Positions 19,665 to 22,889 of a stretch of DNA of 34,891 nucleotides are shown here, one piece after another (the first letter of the stretch is position 1; every line of letters begins with the position of its first letter). The translations under genes were made by a program, and so were the position numbers. This DNA is from Burkholderiaceae bacterium (GTDB taxonomy: Bacteria > Pseudomonadota > Gammaproteobacteria > Burkholderiales > Burkholderiaceae_C). The notes under the pieces are model-generated. The model did no database searches. It had not been told where the DNA came from and worked only from the letters and a program-made list of their open reading frames with translations. The stretch is taken from the NCBI GenBank assembly GCA_013360485.1, contig JABWBN010000018.1:1-34891 (forward strand), in the 5' to 3' direction.

Positions 19665-19682
19665 ATGTCTTATAGAAGACAT
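19665..19682. promoter_or_regulatory. GntR operator, copy 1 (gntR/mdh intergenic)
   Basis: ATGTCTT-ATAG-AAGACAT is a perfect 7-base inverted repeat with a 4-base centre. Its inner 14 bases, GTCTTATAGAAGAC (19667-19680), differ from the acnB copy at one central base. The flanking ATAA is also shared. HutC-type GntR proteins generally recognise GT...AC palindromes, which this fits. The site covers the -10 box and spacer of the regulator's own promoter, and its edge lies 8 bases before the mdh -35 box. Confidence 0.7.
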
Positions 19683-19696
19683 AAGACCTTTGACAA
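19669..19696 (-). promoter_or_regulatory. Predicted promoter of the GntR/UTRA gene
   Basis: On the minus strand, TTGTCA (19691-19696) and TATAAG (19669-19674) are spaced by 16 bases. The operator overlaps the -10 and the spacer, so the regulator should repress itself. The expected start near 19662 gives a leader of about 40 bases to ATG 19622. Confidence 0.5.
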
Positions 19697-19719
19697 TCCC
19701 CCGTGGGAACCCTTAGACT
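19690..19719 (+). promoter_or_regulatory. Predicted promoter of mdh
   Basis: A consensus -35 TTGACA (19690-19695) is followed by 18 bases and TAGACT (19714-19719), a fair -10. The expected start near 19726 gives a leader of about 140 bases before mdh. The GntR operator lies immediately upstream of the -35. At that position the protein could interfere with, or assist, the polymerase. Confidence 0.5.
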
Positions 19720-19865
19720 GCCCTACACTTGCGGCACAGTCGCGCGCGAACGACCAGGGGCGACTGCCGGGCGCATTCCGGCCCTGGCTCGGTGCCCGCC
19801 CCTCGCGCCAGCTCAGCCCTATCCTGCCCCCACCATTCGTTTTTCCTATCCGCCTGGAGCCCCCC

Positions 19866-20852
19866 ATGAGCAAGAAGCCCGTCCGTGTGGCCGTCACCGG
19901 TGCCGCCGGCCAGATCGGTTATGCCCTGCTGTTCCGCATCGCGTCCGGCGAAATGCTGGGCAAGGACCAGCCCGTCATCCTGCAGTTGCTGGAGATCCCC
20001 GACGAGAAGGCCCAGAAGGCGCTCAAGGGCGTGATGATGGAGTTGGAAGACTGCGCGTTCCCGCTGCTGGCTGGCATGCAGGCGCACAGCAACGCCAACG
20101 AGGCCTTCAAGGACACCGACTACGCGCTGTTGGTCGGCGCCCGTCCGCGCGGCCCCGGCATGGAGCGGGCCGACCTGCTGGCCGCCAACGCCCAGATCTT
20201 CACGGCGCAGGGCAAGGCGCTCAATGCTGCTGCCAGCCGCAACGTGAAGGTGCTGGTGGTCGGCAACCCGGCCAATACCAACGCCTACATCGCCATGAAG
20301 AGCGCGCCCGACCTGAACCGGCGCAACTTCACGGCGATGCTGCGCCTGGACCACAACCGCGCGGCCTCGCAGATCGCCGCCAAGACGGGCAAGCCGGTGT
20401 CGAGCATCCGCAAGCTGTGCGTGTGGGGCAATCACTCGCCCACGATGTATGCCGACTACCGCTACGCCACCATCGACGGCGCCAGCGTCAAGGCCATGAT
20501 CAACGATCAGGAATGGAACCAGAACGTGTTCCTGCCCACGGTCGGCAAGCGCGGCGCCGCCATCATCGAGGCGCGCGGCCTGTCGTCGGCGGCTTCCGCC
20601 GCCAACGCGGCGATCGATCACATGCGCGACTGGGCGCTGGGCACCGGCGGCGAGTGGGTCACCATGGGCGTGCCCTCCAATGGCGAGTACGGCATCCCCA
20701 AGGACGTGCTGTTCGGCTACCCCGTCACCTGCGAAGGCGGCGACTATCGCATCGTCGAGGGCCTCGAGATCGATGCGTTCAGCCAGGAATGCATCAACAA
20801 GACCCTGGCCGAACTGCAGGGTGAGCAGGACGGCGTGAAGCACCTGCTCTGA
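19866..20852 (+). CDS. mdh: Malate dehydrogenase (NAD-dependent, type 2)
   Basis: This enzyme oxidises malate to oxaloacetate with NAD. It has 328 residues and belongs to the group of bacterial enzymes close to animal cytosolic MDH. The NAD-binding loop [12 protein letters not shown] is at about 11-22. The substrate-binding arginine loop is [25 protein letters not shown] and LDHNRA are further signatures, and the catalytic His lies in VWGNHSP (about residue 188). ATG 19866 has GGAG at the right distance; the upstream open frame is leader sequence. It is divergent from the GntR regulator and is followed by a terminator-like hairpin, so it may be transcribed largely alone. Confidence 0.98.
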
Positions 20853-20905
20853 TTCAGGTTGACCCCGGCCACGGCCCGCTGCGGGCCGGTGGCGGGTAAG
20901 CTTGG

Positions 20906-20944
20906 AGGGCCGAGGGCAGTCATGTCCGCGGCCCTTTGTCATTT
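20906..20944 (+). terminator. Probable rho-independent terminator after mdh
   Basis: AGGGCCG (20906-20912) and CGGCCCT (20929-20935) form a perfect 7-base stem with a 16-base loop, followed by the T-rich TTTGTCATTT. A second, tighter hairpin, CGGCCCG-CTG-CGGGCCG (20872-20888), precedes it but has no T-run. Together they probably end most mdh transcripts before the CitE-like gene at 20978. Confidence 0.5.
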
Positions 20945-20977
20945 GGCTGCCGCCCGCGTCGCCGGGCCTCATCGGAC

Positions 20978-21976
20978 ATGAGCACTGCCATCCTGCCGCG
21001 CGACGCGCTGTTCGAAGAAGGTGATGCCGCACCGGCGTTGCCTGTATGCGACCACTACTGCGGGGTCGAGGCGCGCATGCGCAAGAGCCTGGCCCTGCAG
21101 GCTGAACTGGGGCCGGTGTTCGACATCACGCTCGACTGCGAAGACGGCGCACCCGTTGGCGCCGAACGCGAGCACGCGAGGATGGTGGCCGAACTGGTGA
21201 TCTCCAGCGACAACCGGCACGGGCGCGTCGGCGCCCGGGTGCATCCGCACGGGCATCCCAGCTTCGAGGAGGACGTCGACACGCTGGTCGGCGTGGCCGG
21301 CGACCGACTGGCCTACCTGATGATTCCCAAGCCGCGCGACGTGTCCGACTTGCGTCGCGCGGTCGAGCACATCGAGCAGGCCTGCGCGCGTCATGGCCGC
21401 GGCGGGGCAATGCCGTTGCACGCACTGGTCGAGACCCACGGCGCACTTCGCGATGTGCATGCGCTGGCAGCCTTGCCGCGCATCGAGTCGCTGTCCTTCG
21501 GGCTGATGGACTTCGTCTCGGCGCACCGCGGCGCCATTCCTCAGTCGGCCATGGGCGTGAGCGGCCAGTTCGAGCATCCGCTGGTGGTTCGGGCCAAGCT
21601 CGAGATCGCCGCCGCCTGCCATGCCGCGGCGAAGGTGCCGTCGCACTGCGTCGTCACCGAGTTCAAGGACACCGATGCCCTGGCCCATGCCGCGCGCCGT
21701 GCGGTGCGCGAATTCGGCTACACGCGGATGTGGAGCATTCACCCGTCCCAGATCGAGGTCATCGTCGATGCGTTTTCGCCCAGCACCGCCGAAGTCGACG
21801 AGGCCATCGAGATCCTGGGGGCTGCCCAGGCCGCTCAGTGGGCGCCGATCCGGCACCGCGACTCCCTGCACGACCGCGCCAGCTACCGCTACTACTGGGC
21901 CCTGCTCGAGCAAGCCCGGCGCACCGGGCAGCCGCTGCCGGCCAGCGCCCGGCGCGCGCTTCTGGGCGAGCCGTGA
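20978..21976 (+). CDS. HpcH/HpaI aldolase, CitE-like acyl-CoA lyase family protein
   Basis: A 332-residue TIM-barrel protein of the citrate lyase beta/malyl-CoA lyase family. Visible family features are the metal-site stretch FDITLDCEDGAPVGAE, the Arg/His-rich VGARVHPHGHP, the strand MPLHALVETHGAL with the metal-type Glu, LSFGLMDFVSAHRG and the late signature RMWSIHPSQIEVI. Such enzymes cleave or form C-C bonds in citryl-, malyl- or citramalyl-CoA, or hydrolyse malyl-CoA. The exact substrate cannot be read here. No citrate lyase alpha or gamma subunit gene is nearby, so it is not part of a CitDEF complex. ATG 20978 is the sensible start but has only a weak ribosome-binding site. Its place between mdh and acnB suggests a role beside the TCA cycle. 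Confidence 0.82.
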   Translation: MSTAILPRDALFEEGDAAPALPVCDHYCGVEARMRKSLALQAELGPVFDITLDCEDGAPVGAEREHARMVAELVISSDNRHGRVGARVHPHGHPSFEEDVDTLVGVAGDRLAYLMIPKPRDVSDLRRAVEHIEQACARHGRGGAMPLHALVETHGALRDVHALAALPRIESLSFGLMDFVSAHRGAIPQSAMGVSGQFEHPLVVRAKLEIAAACHAAAKVPSHCVVTEFKDTDALAHAARRAVREFGYTRMWSIHPSQIEVIVDAFSPSTAEVDEAIEILGAAQAAQWAPIRHRDSLHDRASYRYYWALLEQARRTGQPLPASARRALLGEP

Positions 21977-22121
21977 CCCGCCGGTGCCGCTGCCACGTTC
22001 GGTGACAGCGCATGTCATTCGCGAGGGGCACAATCGCTGCATCGAACGGCTGACTCCGAGAGCCAGCGCCCGCGATCGATTCCCTCCGTCCGCTGCCAGT
22101 CCACCGATGCCGAGGCCCGAC

Positions 22122-22808
22122 ATGCACCGACACATCCCGCACCAGACCCGGGCACAGCGCGCGGCGCGCATCACGGCCATCGCCGTGCTTGTGGCGCTGC
22201 CGCTGCCGATGATTGCCGCCACTCCATCGGCCAGCCCGAGCGGCACCGGAACAGCGGCCAAGCCCACTGCGAGTCGCGCGGCCACTCCACGCGAGCAGCT
22301 GCGCAACCAGGCCAAGGGCCTCGCACTCGCCACCGATACGGTCGAACAGATCACCGAGGCCCAGCTCGAGGTGGCTGCGCGCGTGCTCACCGGTGACGCC
22401 GACTGCGAATTCGACCAGAAGATCGGCGTGCAGCCAGTCGCTGGACAGCCGGGCCACTTTCAAGTGGCGTACAAAAAGGCCGTCTACCGGATGGTGCCTC
22501 AGGAAACCACGACGGGCGCCGTGCGCCTCGAGGACCGCAAGGCCGGCATCATGTGGTTGCAGATCCCCACGAAGTCGATGCTGATGAACATTCGCATCGG
22601 GCAGCGCATGGTCGATGCCTGCACGCATTCCGAGCAGCGTGCAGCCGTAGCCGCGGCCGAAGCAGCCGCGCGCAGCCCCGTGCAGGCCGCAGCGGCATCC
22701 GCAGCGACCGACGCCATGGCGACACCTGCGGCCGAGCCAGCGGCGGCACCCGCGACTCCCGTTGCACCGCCGGTGCCGGGCACTGCCGCATCCGGCTCCG
22801 CGCAATGA
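22122..22808 (+). CDS. Predicted secreted protein of unknown function upstream of acnB, 228 aa
   Basis: I do not recognise the family by name. ATG 22122 has GAGG six bases upstream; the ATG at 22107 is an alternative. A signal peptide is likely: a basic start (MHRHIPHQTRAQRAARIT), a hydrophobic core IAVLVALPLPMIA and cleavage near Ala-Ala-Thr. After a Ser/Thr/Ala linker comes a compact core (about 55-165) with LEVAARVLTGDADCEFDQ, GHFQVAYKKAVYRMVP and AGIMWLQIPTKSMLMN. Its two cysteines, in DADCEF and VDACTH, may form a disulfide in the periplasm. The last 60 residues are almost only Ala, Pro, Thr and Ser. It lies between the CitE-like gene and acnB on the same strand, 145 bases after the former. 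Confidence 0.65.
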   Translation: MHRHIPHQTRAQRAARITAIAVLVALPLPMIAATPSASPSGTGTAAKPTASRAATPREQLRNQAKGLALATDTVEQITEAQLEVAARVLTGDADCEFDQKIGVQPVAGQPGHFQVAYKKAVYRMVPQETTTGAVRLEDRKAGIMWLQIPTKSMLMNIRIGQRMVDACTHSEQRAAVAAAEAAARSPVQAAAASAATDAMATPAAEPAAAPATPVAPPVPGTAASGSAQ

Positions 22809-22861
22809 GCCGGGCGGCCCCCGGCAACTGACGGTCTGGGCGCTCCGGCTTGCCCCTGCGC

Positions 22862-22889
22862 TTGGCAAGTCTTATATAAGACATAAAAT
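22862..22889 (+). promoter_or_regulatory. Predicted acnB promoter with GntR operator (copy 2) in the spacer
   Basis: TTGGCA (22862-22867) and TAAAAT (22884-22889) are spaced by 16 bases. The spacer is almost filled by the perfect 14-base palindrome GTCTTATATAAGAC (22869-22882). This is the same motif as at 19667-19680, with one base different, and both copies continue with ATAA. Binding there would block the polymerase directly. The leader to the acnB ATG at 22976 is about 80 bases. Confidence 0.68.

Follow-up and report, generated by a model that had tools for sequence, protein, structure and literature searches.

Two nearly identical palindromes in a stretch of betaproteobacterial (Burkholderiaceae) DNA with a cluster of tricarboxylic acid (TCA) cycle genes raise the question of which protein reads them, and with what effect on the genes beside them. 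The stretch (34,891 nt of contig JABWBN010000018.1, assembly GCA_013360485.1; 'the window' below means its whole length) carries one palindrome between the divergent genes for a GntR-type regulator (sdhR) and malate dehydrogenase (mdh), and the other in front of the aconitase gene acnB (Table 1). They are very probably operators of the adjacent regulator, a HutC-type GntR protein orthologous to the predicted SdhR that would act as an autoregulated repressor of TCA-cycle genes. The sites, the regulator, the conservation of the two together, and the placement at acnB and mdh can all be read from sequence alone.

Palindromes in the window and the genome

An earlier note on this DNA had described GTCTTATAGAAGAC and GTCTTATATAAGAC as differing at one base and as each continuing with ATAA, and these details, including the positions, checked out on the sequence. 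The symmetry is perfect at acnB and has one mismatch at sdhR/mdh. When the whole window was scanned at up to 3 mismatches these were the only two places found, giving 4 strand matches, while shuffled windows gave a mean of 0.36 and reached 4 in 1 of 100 shuffles. At up to 1 mismatch, 0.0003 sites would be expected from base composition for the window and 0.04 for 4.3 Mb. The assembly, in 378 contigs and 84.7% complete, has four; the reversed control has none. A chance origin is rejected by the window shuffles, the reversed control and the composition expectation alike. Outside the window, the two sites C90:27881 and C354:8669 have their core centres 84 and 188 bp 5' of the starts of two different isocitrate lyase (aceA) genes, and all four genomic sites stand before sdhR/mdh, acnB or aceA. 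A fifth place with 2 mismatches, on contig C340, was dropped, as it falls within long open frames.

Identity of the regulator

The product of sdhR has a GntR winged helix-turn-helix and a UTRA domain, as identified by Pfam. Its open reading frame begins at 19682, inside the operator, and the ATG at 19622 is the likely start because the alignments to many orthologues start only at query residues 11-41; at odds with this, seven same-genus relatives align from residue 1. Assignment to the HutC equivalog (NCBIfam TIGR02018, 118.7 bits, cut-off 220) and to the PhnF equivalog (TIGR02325, 120.9 bits, cut-off 156.8) was rejected on score.

The consensus of 30 orthologue loci (the locus itself and 29 relatives, with reverse complements added for symmetry) is TCTTATGTCTTATATAAGACATAAGA, a 26-mer to which the two window sites have 4 and 5 mismatches. 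It is identical in every letter to the motif given, in the accessible part of PMC4494728, for a regulator named SdhR (GntR family, HutC subfamily), with a citation to J Bacteriol 2012 194:3234; the protein here is of the same HutC/UTRA type. Because the consensus equals that motif, the regulator is already known, and what we report is a further instance of SdhR, not a new regulator. Target genes are unnamed in that part of PMC4494728, whereas here there are operators at the acnB promoter and at two aceA genes; the present targets may already have been predicted in the 2012 paper. A literature search, with most subscription papers beyond its reach, found no experimental study of SdhR.

The histidine utilisation repressor HutC shares the GntR helix-turn-helix and UTRA architecture, but no hut gene is among the reference proteins or the names assigned in this analysis. 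In PdhR, another regulator of the GntR family, the ligand domain is of the FadR type and not UTRA. The PdhR operator likewise differs from the operator here. The predicted PdhR regulon of Shewanellaceae includes sdhCDAB, gltA and aceAB (PMC5343134, in the portion available). A solved ligand-binding domain, 3cnv, described as a 'putative GntR-family transcriptional regulator', is identical to the UTRA part of the window protein at 87 of 161 aligned residues and probably belongs to an orthologue; with the structure of so close a homologue solved, looking for the ligand becomes practical.

Conservation with the regulator in relatives

The site is found just 5' of the regulator in all 30 orthologue loci at up to 3 mismatches (one locus has 3). 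We also considered 80 named loci (Leptothrix, Sphaerotilus, Rubrivivax, Massilia, Cupriavidus, Ralstonia, Caballeronia, Burkholderia and others), which are the best-scoring of 595 candidates and favour close relatives. At up to 2 mismatches, 78 of the 80 have the site at sdhR/mdh, and 9 have it at acnB as well; no other site occurs in their 1.36 Mb, where composition predicts about one. The gene order is mdh-sdhR-sdhC wherever the contig reaches. That the motif would accompany its regulator in relatives is thus borne out, and the mdh/acnB/gntR regulon proposed in the earlier note is supported by sequence, with a single operator for the neighbouring GntR/UTRA protein that is conserved along with it; as a list of targets it was incomplete, lacking aceA.

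In a scan of 200 genomes from the order, the 20-mer occurs at up to 2 mismatches in 95, compared with 3 matches to the reversed pattern. Nine of 60 relatives gave no match to the regulator, and seven of these nine have no site; among the genomes without a regulator match, G043 has its site inside an open reading frame, and G006, an 88% complete genome, has sites at acnB and aceA. Conversely, five relatives match the regulator and lack a site at up to 1 mismatch, three of them having a 2-mismatch site at sdhR/mdh and two having only a paralogue.

Targets across the order

We examined 230 distinct sites at up to 2 mismatches from 123 genomes, the 200-genome scan contributing part of its sites through 80 stretches and 29 new loci; target counts refer to this set, a site between divergent genes is scored for both, and the counts lean to the window's family, which supplies 40 of the genomes and 108 of the sites. 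The gene most often preceded by the site is sdhR (104 genomes, 26 families), followed by mdh (93, 19), aceA (42, 4), acnB (23, 3) and icd (11, 5), aceA carrying it in more genomes than acnB. Rarer targets are rraA (4 genomes) and argD (3), and, in one or two genomes each, sdhC, a citE-like gene, prpB, acnA, acnD, a long aceA, aceB, prpE, acs, mqo, a malic enzyme gene, a biotin carboxylase gene, argF, atpI, hppA and rsxA; seven sites have no assigned target. For these rare targets, each in 1-4 genomes, reference proteins were taken from the sites themselves and names checked by NCBIfam, and some of the genes, cut by the ends of stretches, score under the NCBIfam cut-offs. The frequent targets lie around malate and isocitrate, while the rare ones are suggestive only.

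Several loci show further features. In 13 genomes from the family of the window, aceA is preceded by twin operators exactly 30 bp apart, a spacing near three helical turns at which co-operative binding of dimers is plausible. Many aceA rows (L003, L069, L097, L099, L101 and others) also have a TTGATTT-like stretch about 25 bp 5' of the operator, which may be another regulatory or promoter element. Genes like rraA repeatedly adjoin aceA, with the site between or before them (L004, L083, L300, L314, L316), and sites before argD (three genomes of one family) and argF (one genome) link the motif to arginine synthesis (L045, L089, L090, L247).

Promoter geometry and the direction of control

The operator had been placed within the 16-bp spacer of the acnB promoter and beside the mdh -35, and both placements hold: the predicted acnB -35 and -10 flank the palindrome, and the mdh TTGACA begins 9 bases past the core. 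Only at these two genes do promoter scores rise clearly above those of shuffles (acnB 13.2 vs 7.1, mdh 11.7 vs 8.5). Those of aceA (11.0 vs 10.2), sdhR (10.4 vs 9.3) and icd (9.1 vs 9.3) do not, and we make no claim on geometry at aceA and icd, where scores are about those of shuffled flanks. The third placement, over the -10 and spacer of the regulator's own promoter, fared less well. A TATAAG does lie inside the operator as the predicted -10, with a -35 that overlaps the mdh -35, but the promoter is absent from a plain promoter scan and shuffled flanks often yield a similar placement; the prediction is weak because the core itself holds TATAAG.

Beyond the core, an outer half-box is conserved on the gene side, matching on average 5.3 of 6 positions over 94 mdh sites, against 3.1 on the other side. 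The corresponding count at acnB in the window's clade is confounded because the gene-side box overlaps the -10 there.

We infer binding and repression by SdhR, with release by an acid from around the isocitrate node, along the following lines. A dimer would bind GTCTTATATAAGAC, and the gene-side third half-box ATAAGA probably adds contacts. At acnB, bound protein filling the spacer between -35 and -10 would repress sterically; at sdhR the operator probably covers the -10, which would give autorepression; at mdh the operator would abut the -35. The regulon in this genome would comprise sdhR, mdh, acnB and the two aceA genes, perhaps with sdhCDAB-gltA by read-through. Citrate, isocitrate or 2-methylisocitrate may release the repressor, a choice of ligand that is a guess and rather unlikely to be right as it stands.

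Several observations weigh against this reading. Two named loci (L147, L148) have sdhR and no site at up to 2 mismatches; of the 33 named loci whose acnB upstream DNA is long enough to tell, 24 have no site there and 9 have one; G002 and G006 have sites while sdhR was not found, the G002 contig ending within mdh; and in G038 the only site in the fetched stretch lies before sdhC (L038:1501), with none at sdhR/mdh. The case for autorepression through a covered -10 is weak because the sdhR promoter scores near its shuffles, and the position of the mdh operator, upstream of the -35, is compatible with activation.

This last point leads to an alternative in which SdhR acts in both directions, repressing where the operator fills the promoter (acnB in the window's clade, probably sdhR) and activating where it abuts the -35 from upstream (mdh, and acnB in families f4 and f32). 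Of 94 mdh sites, 53 have the -35 beginning 9-12 bases past the core, and the third half-box falls between the two, as such a model would have it. At acnB, the operator sits in the -35/-10 spacer in 16 of 17 same-genus sites (the exception is G010), while in f4 and f32 the -35 begins 9-10 bases past it, as at mdh, in 4 of 6. In the other two of the six (G088, G198), however, the predicted -35 lies inside the operator; a protein bound just upstream of a -35 can block polymerase too, and HutC-type proteins are mostly repressors. We consider dual action unlikely on balance, and repression remains our preferred reading. Because operator geometry differs between families, acnB was probably recruited more than once, separately in different families.

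Specificity and the paralogues

Within the helix-turn-helix, the segment VSQGTVRK is invariant in an alignment (A1) of 16 rows representing 15 distinct genes (L036 and L047 are the same gene). Five paralogues, 40-45% identical (L243, L244, L245, L234, L237), have SIGT or SVGT at this segment. Up to 500 bp around them there is no SdhR core at up to 3 mismatches, the nearest having 4-5; instead, 88-152 bp upstream of the aligned starts, three have a GTCAT...ATGAC palindrome and two have looser forms, that of L234 tying with other weak matches. Such a shift is predicted if the VSQGTVRK segment reads the site directly, and the correlation, in five genes, is consistent with this. L245 and L234 also lie near a dehydratase gene, which we take to be UxaA-like.

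These paralogues, with a changed segment and different upstream palindromes, bear on whether the motif belongs to another regulator and stands beside the GntR gene by accident. The sites in G006 and G002, where sdhR was not found, would fit such an accident, but the G002 contig breaks off inside mdh, the site adjoins sdhR across the 104 genomes counted above, and the motif is assigned to SdhR in the accessible part of PMC4494728; we regard this explanation as very improbable. Least credible of all, and dismissed almost outright, is that the palindrome, an inverted repeat as symmetrical as described above, serves as an RNA hairpin or mobile repeat rather than a DNA operator: the assembly has only four copies at up to 1 mismatch, and the palindrome would be absent from the acnB and mdh transcripts because it lies between the predicted acnB -35 and -10 and upstream of the predicted mdh -35.

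Neighbouring genes and the sdh-gltA block

The sdhC and gltA leaders lack the motif, as the earlier note had it, their best position weight matrix scores not exceeding -20, where the two palindromes score +48 and +28. The conclusion drawn from this, that the sdh/gltA half of the block is under different control, is not established: wherever a locus holds both sdhR and sdhC, the two genes are on one strand (191 of 191 loci, from 177 distinct genomes or records, of which at least two, L125 and L126, look like duplicates of G009 and G012), and read-through from sdhR into sdhCDAB-gltA is possible because sdhC-D-A-B and gltA follow sdhR on the same strand. The sdhR-sdhC gap has a median of 137 bp; of the 177, 15 have a gap of at most 40 bp and 3 have one longer than 400 bp. 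One genome, G167, carries a site before sdhC in addition to that at sdhR/mdh (L320:1010, L320:1836). The window's sdhC leader also contains, at 18721-18738, a hairpin with a 6-bp stem (ATCCGG...CCGGAT), listed as terminator-like on the + strand only.

Table 1. Genes, predicted promoters and predicted operator elements of the window, with the loci that carry twin operators
Feature	Position	Strand	Basis or remark
sdhC-sdhD-sdhA-sdhB ... gltA, downstream of sdhR across a 137-bp gap	13625..18702	-	possible read-through target
sdhR, GntR/HutC-type regulator with UTRA domain, probable start 19622	18840..19622	-	Pfam GntR 1.1e-20, UTRA 3.6e-33
SdhR operator core, predicted (GTCTTATAGAAGAC), divergent sdhR/mdh promoters	19667..19680		conserved 5' of regulator in orthologue loci
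sdhR promoter, weakly predicted: TTGTCA (19696-19691), 16-bp spacer, TATAAG (19674-19669)	19669..19696	-	flank scan
Third half-box ATAAGAC, mdh side of core	19681..19687		gene-side box conservation
mdh promoter, predicted: TTGACA (19690-19695), 18-bp spacer, TAGACT	19690..19719	+	promoter scan
mdh, malate dehydrogenase	19866..20852	+	NF003916 565.8 bits, cut-off 271
acnB promoter, predicted: TTGGCA (22862-22867), 16-bp spacer, TAAAAT (22884-22889)	22862..22889	+	promoter scan
SdhR operator core, predicted (GTCTTATATAAGAC), in acnB promoter spacer	22869..22882		sequence match, window scan
acnB, aconitase B / 2-methylisocitrate dehydratase	22976..25567	+	TIGR00117 1482.9 bits, cut-off 1287.2
Twin-operator aceA loci: L039, L040, L044, L046, L049, L086, L087, L091, L093, L110, L260, L261, L262			

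Implications

It is tempting to see in SdhR an isocitrate-node regulator of the whole order Burkholderiales, one that would sense an isocitrate-class acid, take its sign from operator geometry, and have acquired acnB separately in different families. Its scope would then span aconitases, isocitrate dehydrogenases, isocitrate and methylisocitrate lyases, malate synthase, mdh, sdh, and the activation of acetate and propionate. We put this forward tentatively, and taken whole it is doubtful. The operator stands beside the regulator in 26 sampled families and also precedes genes whose enzymes form, cleave and oxidise isocitrate; how Burkholderiales control their acetate and propionate metabolism thereby becomes directly testable.

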